Positions 16,411-33,595 of a DNA stretch of 39,548 bases are shown here, one piece after another. A program made the translations under genes and the position numbers. This DNA comes from a virus. Where the stretch lies: positions 1-39,548 of IMG/VR virus record IMGVR_UViG_3300032323_002587; one strand, written 5' to 3'. The notes beneath the pieces are model-generated. The model saw nothing but the letters and a program-made list of their open reading frames with translations, had not been told where the DNA came from and ran no database searches. Numbering within the stretch: position 1 is the first letter of the stretch; each line of letters begins with the position of its first letter.

Positions 16411-18408
16411 ATGGCAAATTTACAAAGTCTAACACTTGGGTCTTCAGGTTATCTTAAATTACCGTCTGGGACATCTGATGAAAGACCCGGCGATGTTATA
16501 ACATACTTTACCGAAGTAGGAACAACTAACTGGAGTGTACCAACAGGTGTAAGTTCAGTACATGTTCTAGTAATCGGCGGTGGTGGTGGTGGTGGTCAAT
16601 CACACATTGGTGGTGGCGGTGGTGGTGCCGGTGGAATGGTAGAAGCCCCAGCATATCCGGTTAGCCCAGGAGGCACTGTTTCAGTTACAGTTGGAGCTGG
16701 CGGATCTGGAAGAAACGGTTCAGGAGCAATAGGCCCAGGCAACGATACCAAAGGAGCTCCTGGCGGAAATTCTGTGTTTGGTGTAATTACTGCATTTGGT
16801 GGTGGGGGTGGTGGATCTTGGAATACACCCGGTAGTGGTGCTGGATTGCCAGGCGGATCAGGCGGCGGAAGTTCACAGCCCACAGCCGGAGCAAGCGCAA
16901 GCCAAACAAGTTTTCCAGCAGTAGGCGGTACAGGTTACGGAAATGCAGGCGGCAGTGGTGCAAATAATCCATCATACGGATCTGGTGGTGGTGGTGGAGC
17001 CGGCGCAGCTGGACAAAATGGAACAACTACCAAAGGCGGCGACGGTGGCATTGGCCGTCAAAGTTCTATCACCGGAGTGTCAACATATTATGCAGGTGGT
17101 GGTGGTGGTGGTACTTATGAACCTTGGCGCAGTGGCGGCACAGGTGGCCTAGGTGGTGGCGGACATTCAGGCCAATCAGATTATTATACGTCTGTTGAAA
17201 CAGAAATGACTGGAGGGATGCCCACAAGTAGAAACAGTCCCGATTCTGGATTAGCACATTTTCAAATGAAAAAAGGTTCAGGAATGCCTGGACAAAGAAA
17301 TACCGGAGGCGGAGGAGGCGGAAATAACAGCCATTACCAGCCAACAGATTTTGGTGGTTGGGGTGGCCCAGGATTAGTTATTGTTAGATATACCCCTCCA
17401 GCCGTAGTTACTCCTGTTGCTGGAATGACTCGTTATAATACTGATGGTAACTTTCAAGAAATCTACGACGGAACCAGATGGAAACCTGTAATTAGAACAG
17501 TAGTTACTTACTCCGCCGGCTCGGCAGTGTTTAACGTACCGCTTGGAATTAACAACGTTGATGTATTGGTTGTTGCAGGTGGTGGGTCAGGCGGTAGTCG
17601 AAACAGTGGTGGTTTCCACACAGTTGGCAATCCCGGCGGGGGCGGCAACGGCGGAACAGACGGCGGTGGTGGTGGTGGCGCTGGCGGCATGGTTGAAGTA
17701 TTCAACTATCCAGTTATTCCAGGCAGTCAAATTAGACTGCACGTGGGTATGGGTGGACGCCAAATGCTTGAAAATAATAGACAGCAAGTTGGTCAACAAG
17801 GTCAACCAAGTCAGTTTGGTGACTTAATTGCTATCGGCGGCGGCTTTGGCGGCTGCGGCCCTGGTGGCCCTTCAGCTAACGGCGGAGCTGGCGGATCAGG
17901 CGGTGGAGCTGGCGGTGGTGGAACCCCTGGACCAGCTACAAACGGTGGAGCCGGAGTGCAACCAAACATACCAGGAATGTCCGGCACTTTTGGTTACGGT
18001 TTCCGCGGCGGTAATAACCCACTTGTTGCTACATATACTGGTTCGGGTGGTGGCGGTGCAGGTGGCATTGGGGGTCAAGGCGGTAACGGAAACGTTGCTC
18101 CTGGCGGTGCCGGCCGAGCAAGTTCTATCACCGGATCTCCTGTGATATATGCCGGCGGTGGTGGCGGTGGTGGCGGTGGCCCTGGCAACGCAGCGGGCGG
18201 AGCTGGCGGATCAGGTGGTGGAGGTGTTGGTGGTTATGCGTTTGGAGACCGAAGCGGACAAGACGGAGCATCTGGACAATTCGGAACTGGTGGCGGTGGT
18301 GGTGGTGGCGCTGGAAACCCACAAGGATATAGCTATCCCGGTTCACCGTCATCTGAAGGCGGATTTGGTGGCGCTGGCGGCCCTGGAATTATTATAGTTC
18401 GTTATTGA
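16411..18408 (+). CDS. Glycine-rich receptor-binding (adhesin-like) protein A, two-domain
   Basis: A 665-aa protein; the ATG at 16411 is preferred over a TTG three bases upstream. It has an N-terminal ~25-residue segment (MANLQSLTLGSSG...ERPG) shared with the two other glycine-rich proteins. Two tandem glycine-rich domains follow (~30-330 and ~365-665), each beginning VPxGVxxVxVLVxGGGGG and ending in GPG(L/I)(V/I)IVRY. Between them at ~338-361 is the GMTRYNT...W motif. Glycine-rich tips of this kind occur in T-even gp38-type adhesins, where polyglycine-II helices carry variable loops; the relation here is by analogy. It converges tail-to-tail with an oxygenase gene, the two sharing 7 bp. Probable host-recognition protein. 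Confidence 0.75.
   Translation: MANLQSLTLGSSGYLKLPSGTSDERPGDVITYFTEVGTTNWSVPTGVSSVHVLVIGGGGGGGQSHIGGGGGGAGGMVEAPAYPVSPGGTVSVTVGAGGSGRNGSGAIGPGNDTKGAPGGNSVFGVITAFGGGGGGSWNTPGSGAGLPGGSGGGSSQPTAGASASQTSFPAVGGTGYGNAGGSGANNPSYGSGGGGGAGAAGQNGTTTKGGDGGIGRQSSITGVSTYYAGGGGGGTYEPWRSGGTGGLGGGGHSGQSDYYTSVETEMTGGMPTSRNSPDSGLAHFQMKKGSGMPGQRNTGGGGGGNNSHYQPTDFGGWGGPGLVIVRYTPPAVVTPVAGMTRYNTDGNFQEIYDGTRWKPVIRTVVTYSAGSAVFNVPLGINNVDVLVVAGGGSGGSRNSGGFHTVGNPGGGGNGGTDGGGGGGAGGMVEVFNYPVIPGSQIRLHVGMGGRQMLENNRQQVGQQGQPSQFGDLIAIGGGFGGCGPGGPSANGGAGGSGGGAGGGGTPGPATNGGAGVQPNIPGMSGTFGYGFRGGNNPLVATYTGSGGGGAGGIGGQGGNGNVAPGGAGRASSITGSPVIYAGGGGGGGGGPGNAAGGAGGSGGGGVGGYAFGDRSGQDGASGQFGTGGGGGGGAGNPQGYSYPGSPSSEGGFGGAGGPGIIIVRY
16576..16596 (+). 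repeat. In-frame GGC(GGT)6 trinucleotide tract
   Basis: A perfect GGT run encodes seven successive glycines at the start of the first glycine-rich domain of adhesin A. Similar shorter GGT/GGC runs recur throughout all three adhesin genes. Slippage here would change loop length without breaking the frame. Confidence 0.7.
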
Positions 18409-19082
18409 TCTGCAGGGTGGGAGGGATACTTCTCCCACTGCTGCTCAGAAGTCATTGTTCGACTTTGAGGACCTAGGCCTAACATTGGCCTAGTGTCATA
18501 TTTAAGTTCTTGTTTTTTTCCGTTTTTCTTTACATAGAACATAAATGCATTGATTTGTTCTTTTCCTAAATAGGGTTTACGCCAATGAGCTAGTTCATTG
18601 CCCATATACATTATAGCATCTCCTGGCTCTTGTTCAACTGTGATAATATTCTTATCTCGATTTTCTATTTCTAAAAACCAATTAGGGCAACCAGGATCTA
18701 CAGAAATACAGCAAGATACTGAGAATTCACTGCTAGATCGATCTGTATGTTTTTTCATCTCGGCACCTTGATAATAAATTCTTGCATAAGAGTATGTAGG
18801 ATATACCTCTTCTCCTATTACATTTTCAACTGCAGATTTTATTAAACTGTTTGACAGTGCTTCAAAACACAACGGAGAATACCAAGAAAATGATTTTTGA
18901 ACCATTTCGTCCCCAAAAGGAAATCGAGGATTCAATGCATCAGGTCCTTTATATGTTGGATTATGTTTATTATAATCTAAGGCTATTTCTCTGGCAATTC
19001 TAAATTCTTCTGCCAGTAGTTTGCACACATCCTTAGATATGGCATTTTTAATAATTTCATAACCTTGTTCTTTAAAAGACAT
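18402..19082 (-). CDS. 2OG-Fe(II) oxygenase (cassette A)
   Basis: A 226-aa protein with the jelly-roll oxygenase pattern. The iron ligands are likely H112 and D114 (HTDRSSSEFS) and H166 (ELAHWRKPY), preceded by TYSYARIYY and followed by a C-terminal YDTRPMLGLGP block. It is a close paralogue of the oxygenase at 32157, which has HRDRPSCEIS, DHWREKFKG and YDGRPIIGI at matching places. It starts 1 bp after the carbamoyltransferase stop with AGGA upstream, so the two are co-expressed. The family uses 2-oxoglutarate and O2 to hydroxylate substrates. The substrate is unknown; pairing with a carbamoyltransferase and facing adhesin A suggests protein hydroxylation, which is inference. Confidence 0.8.
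   Translation of the reverse strand: MSFKEQGYEIIKNAISKDVCKLLAEEFRIAREIALDYNKHNPTYKGPDALNPRFPFGDEMVQKSFSWYSPLCFEALSNSLIKSAVENVIGEEVYPTYSYARIYYQGAEMKKHTDRSSSEFSVSCCISVDPGCPNWFLEIENRDKNIITVEQEPGDAIMYMGNELAHWRKPYLGKEQINAFMFYVKKNGKKQELKYDTRPMLGLGPQSRTMTSEQQWEKYPSHPADQ
18417..18438 (+). terminator. Stem-loop just after adhesin A stop
   Basis: GTGGGAG and CTCCCAC form a 7-bp stem with an 8-nt loop, nine bases past the adhesin A stop codon and inside the 3' end of the convergent oxygenase gene. No T tract follows on the plus strand, so it is not a classic intrinsic terminator. It may protect the mRNA end or slow polymerase at the head-on junction. Confidence 0.35.
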
Positions 19083-19083
19083 A

Positions 19084-20766
19084 TTATTTTCCTATTAATA
19101 AATTAAATTCTGGAAGATATAAAAAGTTTATTTCAGAATTATTTAGAGTATCCATTGCCTGTTCAATAGTTTCTACAATACAATCACCTGCAAGATTAAA
19201 TGAAGTGTTGAATAATATTGGAATGCCTGTTAGCTCTTTAAATGATTGTATTAACTGATAGTAATGACTGTTTTGTTTTTGATCCACGGTTTGTATTCTA
19301 CAAGTTCCGTCAACATGTATAATACTAGGAATGAGATTTTTTTTATTATCCAGTACATCTACGGCAAACATCATAAATGGACTACTATCTAATCCTCGTA
19401 AATCAAACCATTGATTAACGTCTTCTAACAAAATACTGCCAGCAAATGGTCTAAACCATTCTCTTTGCTTAACACGATTAACATAATCTTTGCCGTCTGG
19501 ATCTCGAGGATCATATAAAATGCTTCTATTTCCTAGTGCTCTTGGGCCTGCTTCGCTCTGACCCTGAAAAATTGCAACTATATTTTTTTGAGATAATAAT
19601 TCAGCAACACTTTTATAATTCACGGTTTGAATAGTATTATTTTTAGCTATTTTCTTTATTTCGTCAGCGGAATAAGATTTAGTCGGCCCGTAGTATATTG
19701 AATTTTGTTTTCTAATAGTACAGTCATTAGTAGTGCTGTGCCATATATACTTGGCAGCACCTAACGCTGTTCCTGCATCGCTTGAAATAGGTTCTATATA
19801 AATGTTAATATCTGTAGGTAGGTCTTTTAGATATTCATAATTAGCTACACAGTTTAGAAAAAATCCACCAGACAAACATAAATTTTTCTGATTAGTTGTA
19901 CTAATTAATCTTAGGATTTTTTCTTTAACATATTGTTGTGTCTCCAACTGCAAAGCTCTAGCAAAATTTGCCTGTATTTGAAAATCTGTTGTATCTAAAT
20001 ATGGATAATTTTTAGTGTTTAGGTATACTTTTCTAAGATCTGAACTATGTACTGTGAATAAATCTTTATTAATAATTCCGTCTATAATAATAGGAGGAAT
20101 ATTTAAATCTTCAACACCATATGATGCCATGCCCATCACTTTTCCAGCATCTAGTTCATGAAATCCAAAATGTAATGCTGTTTTTTGAAAAGCTAATGCT
20201 GGGCTTATAAAATCAACAATTCGAATTTTATCATTTAAGCTGGTGTTACACACAAAAGGAACTAGAACTTCTTTTTCTACTAATTCAAAATTACAAGGAT
20301 AAGTGGCTGTAAATGCTGAAAATTTCTCTCGTCCATACGACCCAGGTAAAAATCTATCATCACTGATATAAAATTCTGATCCCATGCCATCTTCGATAAT
20401 ACACAACGCTTCAGAAAATCCCGAATTGTAAAATGCACAGGCCGCATGCATCAAATGGTGCTCTTCCCAAAAATCAACTATTTGTTGTTGACTATTAAAG
20501 AATGACTTATCTAGATGTCTGATAAATGTGCTATAAACATCTTGCTCAATGAAAGATTCTGCAGGAACAGTTTTTCCAACCCCAGCTATTCCGATATATT
20601 CGATATTTTTAACATATTGAGGAATTTGAGATAGTGATTGAAATGGAAATCCGTCAAATTTAATGTTAGAAAACCTTTCATTTTCGATATGAAATTCAAT
20701 TTTTCCGTTCTTTAACAGAGTTACCGCAGAGTTATGTACTCTACTAATTCCAACGATATTTGTCAT
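19084..20766 (-). CDS. NodU/CmcH-family O-carbamoyltransferase
   Basis: A 560-aa protein, full length for the family. The N-terminal Kae1-like domain (~1-345) shows EEHHLMHAA with H103 and H107, IIEDGMGS with D126, and LSGGFFLNCVANYEYL at 298-313. The spacing of H103, H107 and D126 equals that recalled for the metal ligands H114, H118 and D137 of TobZ. The C-terminal YrdC-like domain (~360-560) has GQSEAGPRALGNRSI and FNTSFN. The family moves the carbamoyl group of carbamoyl phosphate, via carbamoyl-AMP, to a hydroxyl. The ATG at 20766 is preferred over an adjacent TTG; no Shine-Dalgarno is seen and TTAAATA lies 4 bp upstream. It is followed by a 2OG oxygenase. The substrate could be a hydroxylated residue, a sugar or a modified base; it is not determined here. 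Confidence 0.88.
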   Translation of the reverse strand: MTNIVGISRVHNSAVTLLKNGKIEFHIENERFSNIKFDGFPFQSLSQIPQYVKNIEYIGIAGVGKTVPAESFIEQDVYSTFIRHLDKSFFNSQQQIVDFWEEHHLMHAACAFYNSGFSEALCIIEDGMGSEFYISDDRFLPGSYGREKFSAFTATYPCNFELVEKEVLVPFVCNTSLNDKIRIVDFISPALAFQKTALHFGFHELDAGKVMGMASYGVEDLNIPPIIIDGIINKDLFTVHSSDLRKVYLNTKNYPYLDTTDFQIQANFARALQLETQQYVKEKILRLISTTNQKNLCLSGGFFLNCVANYEYLKDLPTDINIYIEPISSDAGTALGAAKYIWHSTTNDCTIRKQNSIYYGPTKSYSADEIKKIAKNNTIQTVNYKSVAELLSQKNIVAIFQGQSEAGPRALGNRSILYDPRDPDGKDYVNRVKQREWFRPFAGSILLEDVNQWFDLRGLDSSPFMMFAVDVLDNKKNLIPSIIHVDGTCRIQTVDQKQNSHYYQLIQSFKELTGIPILFNTSFNLAGDCIVETIEQAMDTLNNSEINFLYLPEFNLLIGK

Positions 20767-20770
20767 CAAG

Positions 20771-20829: not shown

Positions 20830-20836
20830 ATAAATA
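20830..20836 (+). promoter_or_regulatory. T4-type late promoter before adhesin B
   Basis: ATAAATA lies 38 bp before the adhesin B start. The predicted transcript would begin near 20842, with a 33-nt leader carrying an AGAGGA ribosome binding site. It sits in the 108-bp divergent gap shared with the carbamoyltransferase, which also holds a small palindrome AACTG-AA-CAGTT (20811-20822). Confidence 0.6.
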
Positions 20837-20874: not shown

Positions 20875-22647
20875 ATGGCAAAATTACAAAATACGCTTGT
20901 TGCAGGAACCGGAGCTATAACTCCATCGTCTGGAACTGAAGGCCAACGGCCAGCCGACACTATAGTTTCATTTACTAGTACTGGTTCAACTACTTGGACC
21001 TGTCCTACAGGTATAACATCTGTAGAAGTGCTAGTAGTTGCAGGAGGTGGAGCTGGTGGCACATCAAACGCAGCAGGAGGTGGCGCAGGCGGGCTAATCT
21101 ACAGACCAAAATATACAGTAGTTCCAAATACAACATACAGTATATCAGTAGGGGCTGGAAACACTAATCCACAACGTTTTCCAGTAGATAATGCTTCACA
21201 TAAAGGCGGTAATTCAAGTTTTGATACGTTGATTGCATTAGGTGGCGGTAACGGTGGCGGAGACGACAGTCCTGGAATTCCTGGAGGATCTGGTGGTGGA
21301 TCAGCAGACAATCCAAATATGCTAGGTGGAACAGGGTTGCAATCAACCAGCGCCAGCGGTGGATACGGATACCCCGGCGGCAATACAGTAAGTTGGAACA
21401 ACGACGGTGGTACTGGCGGTGGTGGGGCAGGTGCAGCAGGAAGACACCATGGTGAAACACCAAGTTATGATGGCGGTACCGGATTGTTATTTGACATTTC
21501 GGGTACAGCAACTTTTTATGCCGGCGGCGGTGGTGGGTTTCGAAGAGATATTACTGGCTACGGACCTCCACAAGGTTCAGGCAGTCCAGTAGCTTCTGGT
21601 AGTGGACGAAGCGGCGCAGGTGGCCGCGGAGGTGGCGGCAATGCTGGTGAAACTGGCGTAGCAGGAGCAGCTAATACTGGCGGGGGTGGTGGTGGCAGTG
21701 GAACTGGGACTGGCGGTAATGGTGGTCCTGGAGTTGTAATTTTACGTTACAATACAGAAATAGGTGGATCTTCAGTAGGTTCAACTCGATATAACTCAAC
21801 ATTAGCTCGATTAGAAATAAGACAAGAAGGAAGATGGATTCCAGTTAATAAATTAATTCAAACTTTCAATTCTTCTGGCACATTTAATGTACCAACAGGT
21901 GTACAAATAGTTGATGTTTTAGTTGTTGCTGGAGGTGGTGGTGGTGGGCAAGACGTTGGTGGAGGCGGTGGCGGAGGCGGAGTTGTTGAAGCATTCGATT
22001 TCCCTGTAAGTCCAGGAAGTGCCATACCAGTAACAGTCGGCGGAGGAGGACAGGGTTCTCCTTGGCCAGGCACATCAGGTCATGGCCAACCAGGCGGCAA
22101 CTCTTCGTTTGGACCACTAACTGCAATTGGCGGTGGCGGTGGCGGATCCTGGGCTGGTAATGCTGGACAAGGCGGAGGCTCAGGTGGCGGTGCAGGTTCA
22201 TCGCCAGGGTCCTGGGATTTTGACGGTAATGGTGCTGGCAACCAACCAACTGTTTCAAATCAATATGCTAGAAATTATGGAAATCCAGGCGGAAGATCTG
22301 CTGCCGGTAACGCACCGTTATACGGTCGTGGAGGCGGTGGTGGTGGGGCCGGAGAACCGGGTCATCCTGCTAGAGGACATACAGGATGGGGAGACGGTGG
22401 TGATGGTATAGCTAGTACTATATCCGGATCAACAGCATTCTACGGTGGAGGTGGTGGTGGTACTAACGACCAAGGAACTCTATCAACATACGGCGGAAGA
22501 GGTGGCGGCGGAAGAGGATCACAAAACGCTCAACCGGCAGAAGCACAACCTTGGATGCCTGGAACAGCCAATACCGGTGGCGGTGGCGGTGGTGGAACTA
22601 ATAACGGAGCTCCGGGTGGATCCGGTGTTGTTATTGTTCGTTTTTAA
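20875..22647 (+). CDS. Glycine-rich receptor-binding (adhesin-like) protein B, two-domain
   Basis: A 590-aa paralogue of adhesin A. Its N-terminal segment (MAKLQNTLVAGTG...QRPA) matches the shared attachment-like leader. Two glycine-rich domains (~30-290 and ~325-590) each start (C/V)PTG(I/V)xxVxVLVVAGGG and end GPGVVILRY or GSGVVIVRF, separated by a GSTRYNS...GRW motif near residues 302-324. A clear AGAGGA site and late promoter lie upstream. It converges with a glycosyltransferase gene with only 3 bp between the stops. Likely an alternative or additional receptor-binding tip. Glycine-rich loops of this kind are expected to vary fast between relatives. Confidence 0.75.
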   Translation: MAKLQNTLVAGTGAITPSSGTEGQRPADTIVSFTSTGSTTWTCPTGITSVEVLVVAGGGAGGTSNAAGGGAGGLIYRPKYTVVPNTTYSISVGAGNTNPQRFPVDNASHKGGNSSFDTLIALGGGNGGGDDSPGIPGGSGGGSADNPNMLGGTGLQSTSASGGYGYPGGNTVSWNNDGGTGGGGAGAAGRHHGETPSYDGGTGLLFDISGTATFYAGGGGGFRRDITGYGPPQGSGSPVASGSGRSGAGGRGGGGNAGETGVAGAANTGGGGGGSGTGTGGNGGPGVVILRYNTEIGGSSVGSTRYNSTLARLEIRQEGRWIPVNKLIQTFNSSGTFNVPTGVQIVDVLVVAGGGGGGQDVGGGGGGGGVVEAFDFPVSPGSAIPVTVGGGGQGSPWPGTSGHGQPGGNSSFGPLTAIGGGGGGSWAGNAGQGGGSGGGAGSSPGSWDFDGNGAGNQPTVSNQYARNYGNPGGRSAAGNAPLYGRGGGGGGAGEPGHPARGHTGWGDGGDGIASTISGSTAFYGGGGGGTNDQGTLSTYGGRGGGGRGSQNAQPAEAQPWMPGTANTGGGGGGGTNNGAPGGSGVVIVRF

Positions 22648-22650: not shown

Positions 22651-23358
22651 TTAATTATTAGTTGAAATCCAACCACTAGCAATTTTTGATAAAACTGCAG
22701 CCCGTTGATTATGAGGAATTCCATAATCGTGAAATAGATAATCTTCGGGCGAAGTTAATTGATAACGATCTGGTTTGTTTGAATACTCATTAAAAATTGA
22801 TGATAAACTTTTTGTTTTTAATCCGTACTTCGAAATATTACAGCTAAGTGTATAATCGTCTAACAAGTGCATGTTATCCATGCCTTTACTTTTTTCCCAG
22901 TTAGTAACTTTAATATTTTTAACCAGTTCCTCTGGAGATTCTTCTAACGGTCTCCATAAGTCTCGACACCAGTTTGAAGCAACAGCAAACCAATTACCAA
23001 TTCCGATGTGTCTACCGTCACGCTGAAACCATTCGTTGGTTTTGAATCTAACAGGAGCAAGATCAAAAGCTGCAAACATCACTGTATCTTTTTGTAAAAG
23101 TGCTGTCGGATCAAAAAAATCAGGATGTACTAAACAGTCAGCATCTAAAAATATGTTCCAGTCGTTGTTGTGAATCGCACTAAGGTTGTATATTTGTAAT
23201 TTTTCACAAGGTGCAGGATAATTAGGAAATTTTCTTTCTGAAATAATATGAAAATCAGCACCAATTTTATCTGCCCACGCTTGCATTGCCGGAAAAGTAA
23301 TTGATGTTATGTCAGTACGATAATTGTCCACTGATAAAGTATAAACTGTTTTTTTCAT
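22651..23358 (-). CDS. GT-A-fold glycosyltransferase-like protein (cassette B)
   Basis: A 235-aa protein. It begins KKTVYTLSVDNYR and has the region KLQIYNLSAIH followed by DWNIFLDADCLVHPDFF, where D72-A-D74 is the DxD metal/nucleotide-sugar motif of GT-A enzymes. A GIGNWFAVAS stretch at ~119-128, HLLDDYTLSCNISKYG and a late H210 (FHDYG) fit GT8/GT-like folds. There is no signal peptide or membrane segment, so it should act in the cytoplasm. It starts directly after the preceding oxygenase stop and ends 3 bp from adhesin B. It could glycosylate a hydroxylated adhesin, DNA or a host glycan; the substrate is unknown. Confidence 0.65.
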   Translation of the reverse strand: MKKTVYTLSVDNYRTDITSITFPAMQAWADKIGADFHIISERKFPNYPAPCEKLQIYNLSAIHNNDWNIFLDADCLVHPDFFDPTALLQKDTVMFAAFDLAPVRFKTNEWFQRDGRHIGIGNWFAVASNWCRDLWRPLEESPEELVKNIKVTNWEKSKGMDNMHLLDDYTLSCNISKYGLKTKSLSSIFNEYSNKPDRYQLTSPEDYLFHDYGIPHNQRAAVLSKIASGWISTNN

Positions 23359-23958
23359 TTATGATAACGTAGTATTAAAATTTGTATTAAAAGAAATTGA
23401 AATTCTATCAGTGTCTTGAGTGTTTGGTTCAACATAGTGTTGTAACCAGGCTGGAAATATTACTAGTTTTCCAGGGTTTGGAACCACACTAAATCTAGCA
23501 GAAGTAAAATTATTATATTCTCCAACATGATTCGGAGTTAGATGATATTGATGATTAATAGCAGGATGTTGAAACACAATATTGCCATCATTGCCTGAAG
23601 TGGAAACATAGTACACACCAGAAAATACACTGTTTTGATGTATGTGCGGTCGATTAAAACTTCCTAAAGAATTTATATTAATCCACATATTCATAATCTT
23701 TATTTCTGCTGGAATCTTTAATCTAAATGTCTCATGAAGAAATTTAGTTCTTTCTAAAATTTCGTTGTAAAGTTTTAAAATTTCAGGATGTGTATTAGCA
23801 AAATCAATGTCTTCACTCTGCCACCCTTTGACATTGCTACAAAGTCGACCTGATGATTGACTTTTTAATTTAACAGCATATTTGCAAATAGCAGAATTAT
23901 CAATAGAGGTTAAATCTTCAGCCGCAATAGGCGACATAAAACAATGATCAATAATCAT
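23359..23958 (-). CDS. 2OG-Fe(II) oxygenase, TIGR02466/PF13759-like (cassette B)
   Basis: A 199-aa protein with the family signatures MWININSLGSFNRPHIHQNS, SGVYYVST, a P.PGKLVIFPAWLQHYVEPN block and RISISFN. Likely iron ligands are H105 or H107 and H174, with R185 as the 2-oxoglutarate anchor. This subfamily has an HxH-type first motif instead of the usual HxD and is common in marine phages and bacteria, with an unclear substrate. Its ATG overlaps the stop of the upstream gene by one base (TAATG), so it is translationally coupled, and it is followed at once by the glycosyltransferase. Confidence 0.82.
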   Translation of the reverse strand: MIIDHCFMSPIAAEDLTSIDNSAICKYAVKLKSQSSGRLCSNVKGWQSEDIDFANTHPEILKLYNEILERTKFLHETFRLKIPAEIKIMNMWININSLGSFNRPHIHQNSVFSGVYYVSTSGNDGNIVFQHPAINHQYHLTPNHVGEYNNFTSARFSVVPNPGKLVIFPAWLQHYVEPNTQDTDRISISFNTNFNTTLS

Positions 23959-24566: not shown

Positions 24567-24575
24567 AAACATACT

Positions 24576-24583: not shown

Positions 24584-24610
24584 ACAAGATTTTCTTTACA
24601 TATTTCTGAA

Positions 24611-25685: not shown

Positions 25686-25906
25686 AATCTACAGCAGAAA
25701 TTAAAGAAATGTACAAACGTTTTAAAATTTATACATGGAATGATACTATTCCAAATTTATATTTAAAATGGAATCAGTTAAATCCTGGATTAGCATTTTC
25801 GGTAGAATTTAACAGCGATTTAAATCTAGCCTGTTTTCATACCAACGGAATCGCAGATTTTGAAACAGATGAAGATATGAGAAGTAAAATTGGTGAACTT
25901 GAATAA
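25682..25906 (+). CDS. Hypothetical 74-aa protein coupled to adhesin C
   Basis: The ATG at 25682 overlaps the adhesin C stop (ATGA) and has AGGA five bases upstream within the adhesin gene; an upstream in-frame ATG at 25661 is buried in adhesin C. The protein starts MKSTAEIKEMYKRFKIYTW and ends in an acidic tail (TDEDMRSKIGELE). No family, signal peptide or membrane segment is recognised. Strict coupling suggests it works with adhesin C, for example as an assembly chaperone or scaffold as T-even adhesin accessory proteins do, but that is inference. Confidence 0.55.
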   Translation: MKSTAEIKEMYKRFKIYTWNDTIPNLYLKWNQLNPGLAFSVEFNSDLNLACFHTNGIADFETDEDMRSKIGELE

Positions 25907-26486: not shown

Positions 26487-27955
26487 CTAACACCACCACG
26501 CACTAGTTCCAACATTTTTTTATGAGAAATCCCAACAGTTTCATTTAAAAACTTTACGTGATTTAATTCAAATGCATAGTCGGCATATTTGTGATTTTTT
26601 TCACTGAGCATGTCATATTCATGTTTAATCGACGATATATCAAACAATTCGAGACCGTGCAATATCATGAGGAAATGCATGTCTTTAAATAATTGATAGT
26701 GAGTTTTACCTGTAAAATCTTCCCTAATTGGTAAATGATGTTTCCAAATTTTAAGATTTTCTTCTAGAGATTCAGGCAACGGTAAATTCGCCACTTCTTT
26801 CCAAAACTCTGTATCTCTTCTTTTACAAATAAAATGCAATACTACAAAGTCTCTAATGTTTTCAAGAAGTTCTGTAACAGATTTATTATACTGATTAACA
26901 ACTGCGTCATTATAATTAATTAATCGATGCATCAACATAAAAGTCTGCTGTATGGTGGTACCAATACTCGATGCCTCTATAGGCTCAACAAAACTCGCAC
27001 TTAGTCCAATAGCACAGCAATTTTTAATCCATACACGGTCAATTCTACCTGGATCAAATTTAATAACTTTGCCAATTTCAACTTCGTGACCAATATATTC
27101 TTCGGCTTCTTTTTTAGCATCTTCTTCCGATACGTGCTGATCATTAAAAATATATCCGTTGCCCCATCTTCCCCACACCGGAGTTCTGAACATCCAACCG
27201 TGTTTCATCGCTTTGCTTGTAGTATACGAGTTGTATTCGTTAGTATCGGGTGTTTGAAAAACCATAGTAGCATTTGTTTTTAGATACTTACTGTAGCTTA
27301 CCCACTTTGCACCTAGTTTAGAAATCAATACTTTTTTAAATCCAGTGCTATCAATATAAAAATCATATTCATATTTTGATTTTTCTCCGGTTAACGTAGA
27401 AATTTCTCCATCTTCATTGATAGCAACATCTAGAATTTCATCGTCGATGATAGTAATACCTTTACGATGGGCTATTTTTGTTAGATACGAGTTTAATCCA
27501 AATGTGTTGAAGTGGAATTGATTAGTAGGAAATTCGTTTGGTCTGGCAATAAACCATGTGTTAATTTTACTTTCCCAATATCTGGTACTAGACATGTGCT
27601 TAGAATCGAGTCCTTGACTAATTTGTCTTCCATAGATTAATGGGTATTGTGCCGATTGTTGATCATATCCTGTTTGAATACTATGCATAAAATCCGGAAC
27701 TCCCCAGTCTTTAAACATTGTACCTGCTTTGTATGTAGCACCAGTTTCGGTTATCATCTCGTACTGATCTAAACCCACAATATCCATGAATTCTTTCCAA
27801 TGTTCAGTACTTCCTTCACCTACTCCAATAATGCCAATTTTCTTGGAACAAATAATATCTATCTGCATCGAGGGAAATCTAGATTTAAGAATTAGTGCAG
27901 AAACCATTCCGGCTGTGCCGCCACCAACTACTACAATTTTTTTAATATCTTTCAT
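26483..27955 (-). CDS. Flavin-dependent (tryptophan-type) halogenase 1
   Basis: A 490-aa protein. The N-terminal FAD-binding motif is VVVGGGTAGMVSA (8-20), followed by GVGEGSTEHW. K76 (TYKAGTMFKDW) aligns with the catalytic lysine of PrnA-type halogenases, and SFVEPIEASSIG (321-332) holds the catalytic glutamate region. The diagnostic WxWxIP motif appears as WMFRTP at 254-259, with F for the second W and T for I, followed by GRWGNGYIFN. The family makes HOCl/HOBr from FADH2, O2 and halide and passes it to the substrate through the lysine. A phage enzyme of this kind, VirX1 from cyanophage Syn10, halogenates broadly. No flavin reductase lies in the window. Substrate unknown. Confidence 0.85.
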   Translation of the reverse strand: MKDIKKIVVVGGGTAGMVSALILKSRFPSMQIDIICSKKIGIIGVGEGSTEHWKEFMDIVGLDQYEMITETGATYKAGTMFKDWGVPDFMHSIQTGYDQQSAQYPLIYGRQISQGLDSKHMSSTRYWESKINTWFIARPNEFPTNQFHFNTFGLNSYLTKIAHRKGITIIDDEILDVAINEDGEISTLTGEKSKYEYDFYIDSTGFKKVLISKLGAKWVSYSKYLKTNATMVFQTPDTNEYNSYTTSKAMKHGWMFRTPVWGRWGNGYIFNDQHVSEEDAKKEAEEYIGHEVEIGKVIKFDPGRIDRVWIKNCCAIGLSASFVEPIEASSIGTTIQQTFMLMHRLINYNDAVVNQYNKSVTELLENIRDFVVLHFICKRRDTEFWKEVANLPLPESLEENLKIWKHHLPIREDFTGKTHYQLFKDMHFLMILHGLELFDISSIKHEYDMLSEKNHKYADYAFELNHVKFLNETVGISHKKMLELVRGGVR

Positions 27956-28540
27956 TTAAAACACCCAAGACACAAAACTGTGTCTTGTTCCTTTAGTTAT
28001 CGGAGTAATTTTGTGAGGATATAGAAATATACTAGGAAAAATAATTATGTCTCCTTTGTTTAATGTGTACGTTATATCCTCAAATAATACTAACTCGCCG
28101 CCTTCATAATCATTATTCAACAAACCTATAATAGATAATACAGGGATTCCCTTTATTGTTCCGTCAAAAATATCAGAAATATGATCACAGTGATTAACCA
28201 TCTGTGTTCCGACTTCGTATTTGTTAAATTTAATAGGTGTATATCCGTTCCAACTATTATACCATGAAAAATTAGCGGTATCACTAAAATATTTTTTTAG
28301 GCATATGTAAACAGTTTCCATTAATTCTTTGTAACAATCTCTATTAAAAAATGCATTATTATCTAAATGAGGACTGTATGTTTCCGGATCGCCTACCTGA
28401 CTTATTTTATTTTCATGATAATTTACAAATTCGTGTTTACTAAATTTAATAGTCTTCAACGATTCTAAACTTGCATCACTTAAAGAATCGGGTATTACAT
28501 TGTTAAAGATTTTAACGTAAGAAGTTAGTTCTTTATTCAT
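27956..28540 (-). CDS. 2OG-Fe(II) oxygenase between the halogenases
   Basis: A 194-aa protein with H117 and D119 (NHCDHISD), H176 (LYPHKITP) and R186 (KGTRHSFVSW), the His-to-Arg spacing being ten. VLSIIGLLNNDYEGGELVLFED and GDIIIFPS give the standard prolyl-hydroxylase-like core, and the C-terminal half resembles the larger oxygenase at 32834 (DYDGGNL, IVVFPG, TRGTRYSLVLW). It overlaps the upstream halogenase stop by ATGA, and its own stop touches the start of the second halogenase. Placement between two halogenases suggests joint action on one substrate. Confidence 0.82.
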   Translation of the reverse strand: MNKELTSYVKIFNNVIPDSLSDASLESLKTIKFSKHEFVNYHENKISQVGDPETYSPHLDNNAFFNRDCYKELMETVYICLKKYFSDTANFSWYNSWNGYTPIKFNKYEVGTQMVNHCDHISDIFDGTIKGIPVLSIIGLLNNDYEGGELVLFEDITYTLNKGDIIIFPSIFLYPHKITPITKGTRHSFVSWVF

Positions 28541-30003
28541 TTCGATTCTCTTATTTTTTTGATGTATTCTTTATGGGTAATTGACGGCATAGTTTTTTCG
28601 TAGTGCCGAATATTGGTTAATAATTTATCTGCGTGATCGTGTAATGAACTTTCTAAAGCATTATATTCTTTTTTAATACTATCAGAATTAAATAATCCAA
28701 GGCCGTGCAACACCATTGTAAAATTATGTTCTTTAAACAAAGAATAATCACTCTGACTATTAAAATCTTCCCCTATCGGTAATTTATGTTTCCATATTTC
28801 TAATCGATCGGCAAGAGTATCCGGAATCGGCATTTCAGCCACATCCTTCCAAAACTCAGTGTCTTTTTTATTAGTGATATAGTGCAACGCCACAAAATCT
28901 CTAATATTATCTAAAATAGTATTAACTGATTTGTTGTATCGTTCGATAGTTAAATCGTCATAGTTAGCTAATCGATGCATTAATAAAAATGATTGTTGTA
29001 TAGAAGTTCCAATGCTCGACGCCTCCATTGGCTCTACAAAGCTAGCACTTAGTCCAATAGCACAGCAATTTTTAATCCATACTTTGTCCAATGCACCCGG
29101 ATCAAATTTAAAAGTTTTGTTTATTTCAATGTTATGACCAAAATATTTTTCTACTTCTATTTTTGCTTCTTCCTCAGAAATATAGTCGCTGTTAAAAATG
29201 TAACCATTGCCATGTCTACCCCAAACCGGTAATCGAAATAACCACCCAGCCTTCATAGTTTTTGCCAAAGTCCAAATATTATAATTGTCTGTATCGGGTG
29301 TTTGAAACGCAATCGCCGAATTTGCTTTTAAGAATTTACTATAAGATTGCCATTTTGCTCCAAGTTTAGAAATCAAAATTCTTTTAAATCCAGTGCTGTC
29401 GATGTAGAAGTCATATTTGTACTGGTTATATTCTCCAACGAGATTATCTATGCCGCCGCTGTTATTGAGATTTACATCTAATATCTCGTCATCTATGATA
29501 CCTATACCTATCGACATTGCTTTATTAGTTAAAAATTCGTTGAGCTTTCGAGTGTTAAAATGAAACTGTACTGACGGGCACTCTTTTGGATTGTCAACAA
29601 ACCAAGTATCTACTTTATTTTCCCAGTAACACTTTAAAGAAATATCTGACGAGTCCACACCGTCGCCGATTAGTTTGCCATATAGATAAGGATATTGACT
29701 TATTGATTGTGTAAATTCTTTTTGAACGCTATGAAAATAAGGCTTTTCGGACCAGCCTTCGAACATAATACCTAATTTACAGGTAGCATCTGTTTCTTTA
29801 ATTAAAGTATAAACATCGATGCCCATAAATTTTAAAAACTCGTTCCAGTGCTCAGTACTTCCTTCGCCGACTCCGACTATTCCAATTTTATTAGATTGTA
29901 TAATATCTATTTTTATTTTTGGAAATCGAGTTTTAAGAATTAATGCAGAGACAAATCCCGCGGTTCCGCCACCTGCAATTGCTATCGAGTTTATTTTGTT
30001 CAT
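28537..30003 (-). CDS. Flavin-dependent (tryptophan-type) halogenase 2
   Basis: A 488-aa paralogue of the halogenase at 26483, aligning without a gap over the first ~330 residues. It keeps the FAD motif (IAGGGTAGFVSA), GVGEGSTEHW, catalytic-lysine equivalent K76 (ATCKLGIMFEGW) and SFVEPMEASSIG. The WxWxIP equivalent is WLFRLP at 254-259. Differences from copy 1 are spread over the protein and include the region after residue 85, suggesting divergence after an old duplication. It starts 3 bp after the upstream oxygenase stop; a TAGGG sits almost on the ATG. Both copies appear intact, so the products may differ in position or substrate. Confidence 0.85.
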   Translation of the reverse strand: MNKINSIAIAGGGTAGFVSALILKTRFPKIKIDIIQSNKIGIVGVGEGSTEHWNEFLKFMGIDVYTLIKETDATCKLGIMFEGWSEKPYFHSVQKEFTQSISQYPYLYGKLIGDGVDSSDISLKCYWENKVDTWFVDNPKECPSVQFHFNTRKLNEFLTNKAMSIGIGIIDDEILDVNLNNSGGIDNLVGEYNQYKYDFYIDSTGFKRILISKLGAKWQSYSKFLKANSAIAFQTPDTDNYNIWTLAKTMKAGWLFRLPVWGRHGNGYIFNSDYISEEEAKIEVEKYFGHNIEINKTFKFDPGALDKVWIKNCCAIGLSASFVEPMEASSIGTSIQQSFLLMHRLANYDDLTIERYNKSVNTILDNIRDFVALHYITNKKDTEFWKDVAEMPIPDTLADRLEIWKHKLPIGEDFNSQSDYSLFKEHNFTMVLHGLGLFNSDSIKKEYNALESSLHDHADKLLTNIRHYEKTMPSITHKEYIKKIRESK

Positions 30004-30006: not shown

Positions 30007-30567
30007 CTATTTAATAAAGTTATACCACCCTGTGATAATATATTTGGTTTCTTCGGGTGCTTTTATTCCTCTATGAGTATGTGTCCAATCCGCTGGCCAA
30101 ATTACTGTTAATCCTTTCGTAGCCACAGTTTCAGTATTCTGATGAAAAAATTTTGTCCCGCCACCTACTTTGATAGAATTTAAATACGTCATAAAAACAA
30201 GATGTCTCGAACTATTAGGGTACTGGCATGACCCACGTTCGGTGTGAAAATCCAAATATCCGCCACCGGGATTATATTCTTGTATCTTAACATTTTCAAT
30301 TATAGAAAACGGTCCGTAATTATTACAAAAAGGGTATAACTTAATATAAGCATCTAACGATTGTTGAAGTTCTTTGAAATACGGAATTAATTTCTCGCTG
30401 GTCGGACTATGAATTGATTCGATACTATTTTTACTATTATGATTTGATTGATTATCTAATCCAGGAGTTGCAATAGTTCCTGAACTTTTCATTGACGTTA
30501 AATGCAGAGAAATCAGATCATCGCATACTGTTTCTGAAATCATTGTTAGATTAATAAAGTTATTCAT
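30007..30567 (-). CDS. 2OG-Fe(II) oxygenase with HxE motif, prolyl-4-hydroxylase-like
   Basis: A 186-aa protein. GGGYLDFHTERG gives H108 and E110; WPADWTHTHRG gives H165; K175 (ETKYIITGW) lies ten residues on. The layout and the HTE variant match the oxygenase at 23958, its nearest paralogue in the window, so the HxE substitution is inherited and not random. The N-terminal half is rich in S and N (residues ~28-55). Its ATG overlaps the stop of the upstream gene (ATGA). Substrate unknown. Confidence 0.8.
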   Translation of the reverse strand: MNNFINLTMISETVCDDLISLHLTSMKSSGTIATPGLDNQSNHNSKNSIESIHSPTSEKLIPYFKELQQSLDAYIKLYPFCNNYGPFSIIENVKIQEYNPGGGYLDFHTERGSCQYPNSSRHLVFMTYLNSIKVGGGTKFFHQNTETVATKGLTVIWPADWTHTHRGIKAPEETKYIITGWYNFIK

Positions 30568-31217
30568 GATTGTTTTTTACATACATAATCGCTAATAACA
30601 AACAGTAAGGTAGTTCTAGGTTCAGCATTGCCAATAAAAAAGTTATCGGGCTTATGAAAAATTTTAGAATCATAAGTCACTAATCGATTATACATATTAC
30701 CAATAGTTAAAGTTTTTTCAAATAAAGAATTATGCGACGTGACTGCGTCAGAATACACAGTTTGATCAATAGGTAAATTTTTATTAAAATCTTCTCTAAT
30801 AGCTGCTACATCTGGAATATCAGATGTCTTGGGTGCATAAAAAGATGTTCCGGCAGAAAAATTAGCTATTCCCTTATTAAGATAGCATACTCCTGCTAGC
30901 AATTCGTGATCGACATGTACCCAACCTTGGTTAAACGGATCGTTAATATTTTGAGAATACAGTGGGTATCTATGAAAGCGTATGTCAATGGTCATAGACA
31001 CAATGTCTTTATAAATTTGCGTAACAAGAGATTCTATAAAATCGTTGGCAAAATTTAAACACATTGAGTTTTTTGATGTAGCAATATTTTCTGTACGAAC
31101 TCCGGGAAAAGATTTACTAGTTACAGTATATTCTAATGAATCAGCTAGTTCTAAAACCGTATCCGGATCTGCAAAAAAATTATTTTTACAAAATAAAAAA
31201 TCCGAATACGGGTGCAT
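30564..31217 (-). CDS. DUF6445-like 2OG oxygenase-fold protein
   Basis: A 217-aa protein. The pattern SFPGVRTENI near 36-45, WVHVDHELLAGVCYLN with H101 and D103, FHKPDNFF with H188, and R201 fits a divergent 2OG-oxygenase group I associate with DUF6445. It differs from the other oxygenases here by a long spacing between the iron motifs (85 residues) and its N-terminal region. No Shine-Dalgarno is visible, so translation probably depends on coupling to the 111-aa gene 4 bp upstream. Substrate unknown. Confidence 0.65.
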   Translation of the reverse strand: MHPYSDFLFCKNNFFADPDTVLELADSLEYTVTSKSFPGVRTENIATSKNSMCLNFANDFIESLVTQIYKDIVSMTIDIRFHRYPLYSQNINDPFNQGWVHVDHELLAGVCYLNKGIANFSAGTSFYAPKTSDIPDVAAIREDFNKNLPIDQTVYSDAVTSHNSLFEKTLTIGNMYNRLVTYDSKIFHKPDNFFIGNAEPRTTLLFVISDYVCKKQS

Positions 31218-31221: not shown

Positions 31222-31557
31222 TTAACTGTTGTTTTTTATGTGTTCTACAAGAGTATCCAATTTTCTAACATCTTCAGACACGCCAATTAATGGATAATGT
31301 ACATTATCGATATCGGTTCCTACCTGAACCCAACCTTGTACAGCACAATAAATTCCTGCAGCCTGGCAGGCCTGAAAGAATTTACTTTGTGATAGATCAT
31401 ATCTTTTGGGTTCTTGAACTTTAAATCGCTGTTTAATAAGTTCGGCTAAATTATCTTGACCGAAACTTTTTACAAATCCCGCAATTTCTTCTGCTGCTTT
31501 TTTATGGTCTTCATTAATACTGCCATAATCAAATGTTGGAATTAAATTTTCTGACAT
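31222..31557 (-). CDS. Hypothetical 111-aa protein in the oxygenase/halogenase operon
   Basis: A small soluble protein with a strong TAGGAG site. The N-terminal half is predicted helical (EDHKKAAEEIAGFVKSFG, NLAELIKQRF), the middle has KFFQACQAAGIYCAVQGW, and the end is helical (VRKLDTLVEHIK). It lacks iron-binding HxD, FAD or sugar-nucleotide motifs, so it is the only gene of the ten-gene operon without a recognisable enzyme core. It could be a substrate, carrier or adaptor for its neighbours; nothing in the sequence decides this. Confidence 0.55.
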   Translation of the reverse strand: MSENLIPTFDYGSINEDHKKAAEEIAGFVKSFGQDNLAELIKQRFKVQEPKRYDLSQSKFFQACQAAGIYCAVQGWVQVGTDIDNVHYPLIGVSEDVRKLDTLVEHIKNNS

Positions 31558-31565: not shown

Positions 31566-32156
31566 CTAAATAAAATTAAAATTAATTACTAATCGGGTAT
31601 CGTGATTATTAGGATGACGCCCGGAATGATAATACTTACCATCAAATACAACAAATCTACCTTTCTTAGGTTCTACTGTTTTAATAATTTTATATTCACC
31701 GTTTAGCTCTTTAAAAAAAGTAGTATCTCCGTCTGAATTGTTTACATAATAAATCGCAACTTTGTGTTTCTGATTGGAATCAATATGCGGTGTATTATAA
31801 AATTCTACATTATTGTGATTTTTTTGAGGTTGAAGATTACATTTTATTCGATAAAATCCTTCAATTTCTATATGAGATTTATTTACAAGTTGTTCAAATA
31901 AAGAATTTATAATTGAAAAATGCGGAGATTTTATTTCACCCTCGACTATAACTGTATGAACTAACTGAATATGATCTTTAATTTTTAAATTGGTAGATTT
32001 TAAAGAACTATGAGATGTTGGATCGACGGTATAGTTGTTTGGCGTGTTAGAAAGATACCATGGAAAATTAGAATCTGTTAATAGTTGTTCAATTTGATTC
32101 TGCATTTCCATTGATATACAATCATCGTAGATATTAATATCTTCACTATCGATCAT
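31566..32156 (-). CDS. 2OG-Fe(II) oxygenase, paralogue of the 25908 gene
   Basis: A 196-aa protein with H124 and D126 (NTPHIDSNQ), H177 (GKYYHSGRHP) and R188 (DTRLVINF). AIYYVNNSDGDTTFF and VEPKKGRFVVFDG align directly with the oxygenase at 25908. Its start codon follows the upstream stop with no gap, and its stop lies within the ribosome binding site of the 111-aa gene. Substrate unknown; the pair bracket the halogenase block in the same operon. Confidence 0.82.
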   Translation of the reverse strand: MIDSEDINIYDDCISMEMQNQIEQLLTDSNFPWYLSNTPNNYTVDPTSHSSLKSTNLKIKDHIQLVHTVIVEGEIKSPHFSIINSLFEQLVNKSHIEIEGFYRIKCNLQPQKNHNNVEFYNTPHIDSNQKHKVAIYYVNNSDGDTTFFKELNGEYKIIKTVEPKKGRFVVFDGKYYHSGRHPNNHDTRLVINFNFI

Positions 32157-32843
32157 TTATAGTCGTTGAAAAGTCTTTGGGATACCAATAATAGGACGAC
32201 CATCATACATGTTTTGATACGGGCCGGTTGCATCATTATAATGTAAAAATGTTTGAGCATGGCACAGACCTTTAAATTTTTCTCTCCAATGATCAACTTC
32301 ACACCCGCGATATACAATTAAATCGCCAGGTTGTAATGAAATAGGAGCAGAATCTTGTCCAGGTATTTGTGTAGTTTCAACCCAAATATCCCAATTATAA
32401 TCTGGATCTTTTTCTTGATCTATATTACTATTGTTATATCCGAGACACAGTGTAGCACTAATCTCACAGCTTGGCCGATCTCTATGGCGAACTAATTCTT
32501 CCCCTAATTGATATAATCTCCAATAGCTATATGTTGGAATCAAATTCAGCCCAGTATATTTTTCAATCATAGGCCGAGCAGTAGCAAGTAAGGTATCCAT
32601 TAATACATCGCCGTATGCACTATAACTGCTAGGAGCTTGAGAATCTCCAAAAGTTCCATCCCAGTCGGCGTTGTAATTTTCTAAGTCAAATGTAGTTTTA
32701 AAATCGATTTGTTGAACTTTAGCAAGACAATATTGATAAACAAGGCCAACAATATTGGGATCTAGAAAATTACGAACAACTACATATTTGTGATTTTTAA
32801 AATATTCTTGAATGTCTTGTGTGTTTTTGTCTATCATTTCCAT
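32157..32843 (-). CDS. 2OG-Fe(II) oxygenase, paralogue of the 18402 gene
   Basis: 228 aa from the ATG at 32843, chosen because AGGA sits five bases upstream; ATGs at 32861 and 32837 are alternatives, the last overlapping the preceding stop as ATGA. Ligands are H120 and D122 (VRHRDRPSCEIS) and H185 (EVDHWREKF). TYSYWRLYQLGEE before the HxD and YDGRPIIGI near the end match the cassette A oxygenase closely. The insert at ~137-165 is longer than in that paralogue. Part of the ten-gene operon. Confidence 0.82.
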   Translation of the reverse strand: MEMIDKNTQDIQEYFKNHKYVVVRNFLDPNIVGLVYQYCLAKVQQIDFKTTFDLENYNADWDGTFGDSQAPSSYSAYGDVLMDTLLATARPMIEKYTGLNLIPTYSYWRLYQLGEELVRHRDRPSCEISATLCLGYNNSNIDQEKDPDYNWDIWVETTQIPGQDSAPISLQPGDLIVYRGCEVDHWREKFKGLCHAQTFLHYNDATGPYQNMYDGRPIIGIPKTFQRL

Positions 32844-33595
32844 GGTTTTCCTAAGCTCCATAATACCAAACTGTATCTAGTTCCTCTTGTTACAGGAGTT
32901 ACACAATGATTAACAAATCCGGGAAACACAACAATGCTTCCTTGCGGTCGTATTTCTACGCATTCGTGATATTGATCACCGTCAACATGAGATCCAAAGT
33001 CAAATTTTAAATTACCGCCATCATAATCGCCTGGTTCATTAAGATTAATAGTCAAGCTAATCTTTCTGACTTTTCCAACCATATTATTATTTGTAGTGTA
33101 TTTTCCTGGTAGTTTCCCATCCGGCTTGAGAGGTAACTGCGTTATTCCGTGAATATACCTTCTAAAGATTCCAAATTGATCACTGTCTCCATCTTTATGC
33201 CAAGAATAAAATTGTCCAGGATTATATACAGTAAATTGAAAAGGTTCAGAGAAATCCCATTGCCAATTCCAGCCAGCATTTTTATTTGCTTCGTGTATAA
33301 AAGGATGAATAGTGTCATATAACCATTCGTCGTCTAACCAAGCGGTTTCGCTATCTCTAACATAAAGTTCTTTGGTATTGACGCCTTCTTTTTTTAATTC
33401 TTGACGCGAAAATTCTCCCTGCGGCTTTGTTACTCCAGGGGATCCTTTTTGAGTTTCTCCGAATGTATAAGCATTTGTACTGAATCCTGCTGCTTTATCT
33501 GCTTCAATTTTTGCTTTCCCTAACTCAATAATTTTTTGACAAATTTCTGGGGTTAAGGCCGATTTAAAATAATAATAAGTATTTTTAAGTTCCAT
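32834..33595 (-). CDS. 2OG-Fe(II) oxygenase, prolyl-4-hydroxylase-like, first gene of cassette C
   Basis: A 253-aa protein. FTVYNPGQFYSWHKDGDSD gives H133 and D135; VVFPGFVNHCVTPVTRGTR gives H230 and R240, spaced by ten as in prolyl/lysyl hydroxylases. ISLTINLNEPGDYDGGNL is a standard core strand pair. It is the longest oxygenase here, with an extended N-terminal region and an insert near 145-175. An AGGA site precedes the ATG, and a late promoter box lies 30 bp upstream with a 24-nt predicted leader. Very similar proteins are common in marine T4-like phages, and their substrate is not known to me. Confidence 0.85.
   Translation of the reverse strand: MELKNTYYYFKSALTPEICQKIIELGKAKIEADKAAGFSTNAYTFGETQKGSPGVTKPQGEFSRQELKKEGVNTKELYVRDSETAWLDDEWLYDTIHPFIHEANKNAGWNWQWDFSEPFQFTVYNPGQFYSWHKDGDSDQFGIFRRYIHGITQLPLKPDGKLPGKYTTNNNMVGKVRKISLTINLNEPGDYDGGNLKFDFGSHVDGDQYHECVEIRPQGSIVVFPGFVNHCVTPVTRGTRYSLVLWSLGKPWK

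Follow-up and report, generated by a model that had tools for sequence, protein, structure and literature searches.

Gene content of the region

The stretch of DNA analysed here (the window, W in comparisons) is a single virus record of IMG/VR with a length of 39,548 bp. It comes from the structural region of an aquatic, T4-like phage of the T4 superfamily and contains three glycine-rich adhesin genes, A, B and C, each facing a cassette of putative tailoring enzymes (Table 1). The window starts inside a block of fibre genes, followed by A, B and C with their cassettes, p86, p131, a sheath-stabiliser-like gene labelled ANC1, a second virion gene labelled ANC2, a neck-type gene, a deoxynucleoside monophosphate (dNMP) kinase and the start of the tail sheath. 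The A-B-C region is the hypervariable section known in such phages as the host recognition cluster (PMC7029224). Fibres, adhesins and enzyme islands extend from 41 to 33595, the neck-type gene lies at 37275 (phrog_211) with the tail-sheath start after it, and the region is variable across about 45 relatives.

Each of the three plus-strand genes ends within a few bases of a minus-strand cassette, and positions, strands and 3' ends confirm what a preliminary description of the sequence had stated. The 3' ends of A (18408) and an oxygenase gene (18402) overlap by 7 bp, B ends at 22647 against a convergent gene ending at 22651, and C with a small gene (81 amino acids (aa) if started at 25661, 74 aa with an internal ATG as start) ends at 25906 against an oxygenase gene ending at 25908. 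All three adhesins match PF21722 (Gly_rich_2) in Pfam, with two domains each in A and B and one in C.

Cassette 1 consists of a phytanoyl/2-oxoglutarate (2OG)-type oxygenase and a NodU/TobZ-type carbamoyltransferase, cassette 2 of two 2OG oxygenases and a 235-aa protein, and cassette 3 of ten genes, namely seven oxygenases (one DUF6445), two flavin-dependent halogenases and one unassigned gene. The earlier inventory of cassettes 1 and 3 was correct. In cassette 2 the two oxygenases were found again, whereas the glycosyltransferase label of the 235-aa protein is unproven. It derives solely from a DAD motif (FLDADCLVHPDF); Pfam, PHROGs, NCBIfam and PDB gave no family match, and the AlphaFold2 (AF2) model is poor (pLDDT 41.5).

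A layout repeated three times had also been thought hard to explain by unrelated cargo. Convergence is partly forced, because wherever a minus-strand cassette lies among tandem genes of the plus strand it inevitably opposes the 3' end of the gene ahead of it, and convergence as such was rejected as evidence. What holds is that the same pairs of adhesin and enzyme return in unrelated backbones, which, judged from the sequences, is not chance.

Adhesin A and the carbamoyltransferase

Carbamoyltransferases at least 50 % identical to that of the window were termed CARB-I, dereplicated at 85 % and counted where the gene context was visible. Ten of the 11 CARB-I genes converge on a glycine-rich gene, compared with 0/39 other carbamoyltransferases (Fisher test, 1e-9); by broad lineages, about six of seven CARB-I face such a gene. 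In ten of these loci the two 3' ends overlap by 4-54 bp. Cultured representatives with this 3' to 3' arrangement are the Synechococcus phages S-CAM8, S-MS29, S-SSM5 and S-TIM4 (overlaps 26-54 bp), whose glycine-rich proteins are AGN33875, WLW37189, ADO98030 and AXF41177, respectively. In the open-access literature no link between these carbamoyltransferases and glycine-rich adhesins was found.

The glycine-rich domains facing CARB-I can be recognised as a subtype by an inserted TDGG, the motif GPG and Y-x-GSGGGG. Within the window this subtype is found solely in the distal domain of A (aa ~365-666; subtype residues Thr417-Asp418, Cys483, Tyr543 and Ser546), and not in the first domain of A, both domains of B or C. 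Its nearest relatives are the CARB-facing genes of three loci (G053, L353 and G054). Ten of 12 CARB-facing distal domains are nearest to the CARB-facing domain of another locus (shuffle mean 1.8; 0/2000 shuffles reach 10), and identity among the carbamoyltransferases correlates with identity among the facing domains (Spearman 0.77; 0/5000 permutations); these permutation figures are not strict probabilities because related phages share history. A stronger argument is the remoteness of the backbones, since the CARB-I loci resemble the window by just 21 % in the neck gene, 26 % in ANC1 and 28-59 % over part of the length of the fibres. Phages whose ANC1 is 82 % identical to that of the window lack CARB-I.

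A reciprocal scan of viral contigs was blind to the enzymes and used the DNA pattern encoding GTDGGxGxGAGG; a profile scan with the alignment of CARB-type domains had given four loci only. The pattern retrieved 70 glycine-rich open reading frames (ORFs), 60 of them with visible downstream context. A carbamoyltransferase is faced convergently by 31/60, and 14 more precede 2OG oxygenases on the same strand (our own count). These comparisons demonstrate that the distal domain of adhesin A, the oxygenase PHYHa and the predicted O-carbamoyltransferase are a module travelling across distantly related phages. In the loci L286 and L292 CARB-I sits between replication-type genes.

Family and predicted fold together assign adhesin A to the PF21722/Pam3-like glycine-rich tips. 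The AF2 model of its distal domain (pLDDT 76.7, pTM 0.82) has the fibre of cyanophage Pam3 as top PDB match in Foldseek (E 1.3e-5, TM 0.46/0.54). Among viral proteins, a 387-aa glycine-rich protein of S-TIM4 leads the matches by seven orders of magnitude; it agrees in length and phage with the gene facing CARB-I there. Pam3 gp24 and S16 gp38 are glycine-rich receptor-binding tips as well (PMC9608196). However, Pam3 gp24 has one such tip with a chaperone, whereas here one or two PF21722 domains are accompanied by convergent tailoring enzymes.

Adhesin C and the halogenase

A second pairing was found in G051 (147.6 kb) and G052. Behind the S74 fibre gene of G051, a glycine-rich gene and its p81-like neighbour oppose HALb-OX61c (identity to the window enzymes 60 % and 54 %, same order). 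Then come two TDGG-type glycine-rich genes facing PHYHa-CARB-I (61 % each, same order) and the anchors ANC1 (43 %) and ANC2 (46 %). G052 has a similar order, with OX61a replacing PHYHa beside CARB-I. The best matches of the distal domain of C are the halogenase-facing genes of G051 and G052 (normalised scores 0.57 and 0.51; all others at most 0.41). Domain matches and module positions therefore mean that the two pairings are conserved within single genomes, in a chromosomal order swapped relative to the window. The distal domain of adhesin C, p81, the predicted halogenase HALb and OX61c thus recur as a unit, in permuted order, in phages with distantly related core genes, as the alignments demonstrate.

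In 3/3 cases (window, G051, G052) p81 or its homologue is placed between the C-type adhesin and HALb. Its strand is flipped in G052 while the position is kept, which argues for a functional rather than an operonic association. In L460 (15019-15306) the homologue is inverted relative to W and G051 and still lies between the C-type adhesin and HALb. Halogenase-facing domains contain 2.5 % His, CARB-facing ones 0.8 %, and the three C-type domains share three subtype-specific His residues; this is suggestive only.

The nearest bacterial halogenase homologues (~30 % identity; L185-L264) have TonB receptors as neighbours in 38/80 loci, SapC in 23 and Cupin_8/JmjC proteins in 20. Here, too, a surface receptor (TonB-dependent) stands beside a set of halogenase and oxygenase. 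As a guide to the substrate these operons are suggestive of surface proteins and were set aside as too remote.

Enzyme families and catalytic residues

The carbamoyltransferase of the window belongs to the NodU/TobZ type, with Carbam_trans_N and Carbam_trans_C domains, matches to TobZ and GdmN and an HxxxH-type motif (HHLMHA). No match to PyrB (aspartate/ornithine carbamoyltransferase) was obtained, as Pfam gave Carbam_trans N/C only and the PDB matches were all O-carbamoyltransferase types. Publications on S-MS29 and S-SZBM1 annotate such carbamoyltransferases as PyrBI or pyrimidine-synthesis genes (PMC9146016, PMC10436341; loci L268, L270, L271, L272). This annotation is contradicted by the window homologue, because it belongs to the TobZ/NodU family.

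Both halogenases fall into PF04820, with G11-G13 (FAD motif GGGTAG), K76 and E327 invariant in 17 homologues. The canonical WxWxIP motif is not present; its first Trp (W254) is invariant, but the window halogenases read GWLFRLP and GWMFRTP. VirX1 (PDB 6qgm) is, like HALb, a phage-encoded member of PF04820. However, it is the weakest of 30 PDB matches for HALb, and bacterial Trp halogenases score higher. Of the iron triad of the 2OG enzymes, all ten oxygenases share an invariant first His. The distal His aligns in nine of them, and the remaining one (27956) has a His one column away; the oxygenase at 23359 (OX5) has HxH instead of HxD/E. No cassette protein contains a strongly hydrophobic segment, the highest 19-residue hydropathy (1.64) being that of a halogenase. 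The PHROGs labels 'ferrochelatase' and 'DNA endonuclease V' on the 2OG oxygenases 18402-19082, 25908-26486 and 31566-32156 look misannotated and appear to have spread into GenBank phage records.

Table 1 Adhesin genes, cassette genes and late-promoter-like motifs of the window
Feature	Position	Strand	Evidence and remarks
Glycine-rich adhesin A, 666 aa, two PF21722 domains	16408..18408	+	Pfam
PHYHa, 2OG/phytanoyl-type oxygenase, cassette 1	18402..19082	-	phrog_2954; HxD...H kept; 56-61 % to PHYHa beside CARB-I in G051, G053, G054
CARB-I, NodU/TobZ-type O-carbamoyltransferase	19084..20769	-	PF16861, PF02543; PDB TobZ, GdmN, novobiocin carbamoyltransferase; HHLMHA at residue 104
Glycine-rich adhesin B, 590 aa, two domains	20875..22647	+	Pfam
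235-aa protein, candidate GT-A-like glycosyltransferase (DAD motif), cassette 2	22651..23358	-	One 32 % homologue
OX5, 2OG oxygenase, cassette 2	23359..23958	-	PF13759, TIGR02466
OX61a, 2OG oxygenase, cassette 2	23958..24587	-	PF13640
Glycine-rich adhesin C, 336 aa, one domain	24675..25685	+	Pfam; closest domains face HALb-OX61c in G051, G052
p81, small gene between adhesin C and halogenase cassette	25661..25906	+	Homologues in same place in G051 (same strand), G052 (flipped)
OX274a, 2OG oxygenase	25908..26486	-	Family match; iron-site alignment
HALa, flavin-dependent halogenase	26483..27955	-	PF04820
OX61b, 2OG oxygenase	27956..28540	-	Family match; iron-site alignment
HALb, flavin-dependent halogenase	28537..30003	-	Invariant Lys76, Glu327; 60 % to G051 HALb
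OX61c, 2OG oxygenase	30007..30567	-	54 % to G051 OX61c, same order
DUF6445 2OG-like oxygenase	30564..31217	-	PF20043; profile similarity to 2OG families
p111, phrog_10937, function not assigned	31222..31557	-	Recurs beside CARB-I, OX61d, glycine-rich genes
OX274b, 2OG oxygenase	31566..32156	-	Family match; iron-site alignment
PHYHb, 2OG/phytanoyl-type oxygenase	32157..32861	-	Recurrent pair with OX61d
OX61d, 2OG oxygenase, PKHD/PiuC-like	32834..33595	-	Family match
Late-promoter-like ATAAATA, 45 bp upstream of adhesin B	20830..20836	+	T4-type motif
Two late-promoter-like ATAAATA, 64 and 43 bp upstream of adhesin C	24611..24638	+	Motif
Late-promoter-like ATAAATA, 36 bp upstream of cassette 3	33625..33631	-	Motif

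Layout in relatives

Relatives were anchored on the conserved gene at 34315-35835, which selects for neither adhesins nor enzymes; halogenase and S74-fibre relatives were added, and all were gene-called and labelled. The usual order in close relatives is fibres, S74, three tandem paralogous fibre genes, one mixed-strand enzyme island and p86. The tandem triplet belongs to another, not glycine-rich family in L020, L032 and L127, and islands interleaved with fibre genes occur in L075 with L171, L014 with L175, L009 with L182, and L088. In the closest backbone (L058; ANC1 82 %, fibre TF2 71 % identical) the enzymes are just 30-58 % identical to those of the window. 'One cassette per adhesin' was rejected as a rule, most close relatives having a tandem triplet with one island.

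The preliminary description had proposed that adhesin and cassette are exchanged together as modules, and had named as a check whether each adhesin allele travels with the same cassette. It does so for A with the PHYH-type oxygenase and carbamoyltransferase and for C with the OX61c-HALb end of its cassette, but neither for most other oxygenases nor as a general rule. Independent assortment, which had been named as the refuting observation, is indeed the behaviour of the bulk of the oxygenase cargo (tandem triplet plus single mixed-strand island).

Three tandem paralogous fibre genes of near-equal length, from at least four unrelated sequence families, follow the S74 or the p15089 gene in L024, L053, L090, L093, L123, L128, L129, L131, L132, L178, L020, L032 and L181; the fixed copy number could reflect a heterotrimeric tip. 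GroEL-like (~555 aa) and GroES-like (~102 aa) genes lie inside the same island, beside p86, in L024, L090, L123 and L007. In L373, another T4-like lineage, OX61d and PHYHb are found among tail-tube/capsid-like, helicase, sigma-factor and recombination-like genes, away from the fibres.

Adhesins stand next to oxygenases in further phages. In the cultured Pelagibacter phage HTVC008M an S74 fibre, a glycine-rich gene and a small gene face a minus-strand cassette of five oxygenases directly before the neck genes. In Mosig, HTVC023P, HTVC033P, S-SM1 and S-RSM4, retrieved by oxygenase similarity, glycine-rich genes lie near oxygenases on the same strand (5/5). The orientation is therefore variable and the proximity of adhesin and oxygenase constant.

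The enzymes could instead be metabolic or moron genes that collect beside fibres by frequent recombination and act on host metabolites such as 2OG, pyrimidines or small molecules, their linkage to adhesins being hitch-hiking. Hyperplasticity of this site is already known (PMC2984593, PMC7029224), 2OG/NtcA signalling (PMC3037559) and pyrimidine synthesis (PMC9146016, PMC10436341) have been proposed as functions, and many or most of the oxygenases do reshuffle among close relatives. However, hitch-hiking fails to explain a subtype-specific pairing at 50-60 % divergence across unrelated backbones, and the pyrimidine proposal fails on family because the window enzyme is TobZ-type, not PyrB. We regard this explanation as improbable for the region. 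The host recognition cluster of pelagimyophages and cyanomyophages (PMC7029224) and the cyanophage g15-g18 hyperplastic region (PMC2984593) likewise hold a hypervariable island of fibre, glycosyltransferase and metabolic genes beside the neck genes of the structural region. Those islands were described as variable or as host-surface and metabolic genes, whereas here specific adhesin-enzyme pairs are conserved as modules. The cluster itself and the enzyme families in cyanophages are already known.

Expression signals

The T4 late-type motif ATAAATA occurs seven times in the window, and six of these copies precede a correctly oriented start by no more than 64 bp; the exact late promoter TATAAATA is absent from the window, the ATAAATA form being the enriched one. 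In the merged relatives it precedes 27/89 starts of enzyme units (permuted control 5.5), 33/96 of structural units (control 3.1) and 4/221 internal enzyme genes. This suggests from promoter motifs that enzymes and adhesins are co-expressed late in infection, and the late-type motifs before enzyme units argue against a nucleotide- or DNA-level role of the enzymes.

Hypermodification of DNA bases by the 2OG oxygenases, the glycosyltransferase and the carbamoyltransferase would be one such role, since similar enzyme classes occur in phage base-modification systems. The cassettes, however, have late-type instead of early promoters, adjoin tail genes and pair with adhesin subtypes, and the Pfam search of the window genes matched no DNA-modification family, which makes this role highly improbable.

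Possible modification of the adhesin tips

The exchange of modules is established by the sequence comparisons, and these suggest in addition that the adhesins are modified. We think it marginally probable that the region consists of exchangeable modules, each a glycine-rich receptor-binding gene with convergent tailoring enzymes, whose enzymes modify the distal tip of the facing adhesin before assembly. Enzymes and adhesins would be made together late in infection, and the enzymes would act on the distal tip before virion assembly, presumably in the cytoplasm because they have no strongly hydrophobic segments. The 2OG enzymes would hydroxylate the tip. CARB-I would O-carbamoylate a tip hydroxyl, with Thr417, Tyr543 and Ser546 or a new hydroxyl, which the neighbouring PHYH/2OG enzymes could provide, as candidates. 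TobZ and GdmN, of the same family, put carbamoyl on hydroxyls, and the three hydroxyl residues of the A subtype are absent from most other glycine-rich domains. HALb may halogenate aromatic or His residues of adhesin C. Such modification would tune or protect receptor binding. The other oxygenases, which reassort more freely, may have several fibres as substrates. The retained catalytic residues of the cassette enzymes speak for this reading, as does their lack of strongly hydrophobic segments.

Several points weigh against it. One CARB-I lineage (L285-L287, L292, L293) stands beside replication-type genes with no adhesin in view. Other adhesin types, too, can accompany HALb relatives of 55-57 % identity (L123, L088), and the C pairing is accordingly supported by fewer cases than the A pairing. 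Three tandem glycine-rich genes with a single mixed-strand island are found in the close-backbone relatives L022, L024, L090, L093, L123, L128, L129, L131 and L132. The pair OX61d and PHYHb, partly rejected as adhesin-specific, is also found in L373, inside a core block (tail-tube/capsid and replication genes) that has no adhesin in its neighbourhood. Adhesin B and its cassette have no module relative among the compared loci; tblastn with B in phages gave no match, probably owing to the low-complexity filter. Finally, the substrates of the enzymes are inferred, we know of no TobZ-type enzyme that O-carbamoylates protein side chains, and a common host receptor as target of both adhesin and enzyme would produce linkage as well.

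This last point leads to the main rival, in which the enzymes modify a host surface molecule bound by the paired adhesin, so that progeny and superinfecting phages would avoid debris and infected cells late in infection. In seroconverting phages (P22-type gtr) enzyme and receptor-binding protein are linked to one receptor. A shared receptor predicts the identical linkage of allele and cassette. Furthermore, glycan chemistry is the usual setting for carbamoyltransferases, glycosyltransferases and the ADP-heptose genes of relatives; some carbamoyltransferases of the other clade sit with heptose genes, and host-surface alteration was proposed for glycosyltransferases of the same cluster in pelagimyophages (PMC7029224). 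However, gtr systems use a membrane flippase/GT-C glycosyltransferase and a lipid-carrier glycosyltransferase, and the hydropathy scan found no membrane or carrier-lipid component among the cassette proteins. The CARB module also spans unrelated backbones including Synechococcus phages, which would require one receptor in very different hosts, and framework-like positions with conserved Thr, Tyr and Ser belong to the adhesin signature. Backbone spread and the missing membrane components lean against a modified receptor, which we consider rather unlikely.

Modification of the adhesin itself has a parallel in the virion glycosylation of mycobacteriophages, whose phage-encoded enzymes are thought to modify their own virion proteins. 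That glycosylation (mentioned in PMC11256854) concerns capsid and tail and differs from the adhesin-specific convergent modules with carbamoyltransferase or halogenase described here. The broader notion of an exchangeable adhesin tailoring code, in which each tip subtype brings its own modification enzymes (hydroxylation and O-carbamoylation versus halogenation) and specificity is sequence plus covalent chemistry, is tentative and has a little less than an even chance. The role of the 2OG oxygenases, halogenases and carbamoyltransferases of cyanophages and pelagiphages is not settled, proposals including 2OG signalling, pyrimidine supply and DNA repair. One carbamoyltransferase clade is paired specifically with one adhesin subtype irrespective of backbone, and this offers a concrete substrate hypothesis for phages already cultured. 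If true, the host range of abundant aquatic phages would depend on covalent chemistry of the tail tip, overlooked by sequence-only predictors.

Outside the cluster, a small Cys/His-rich, HNH-like ORF (39024-39359, minus strand) lies between the dNMP kinase and the tail sheath, and a homologue of ~111 aa is kept there in relatives.

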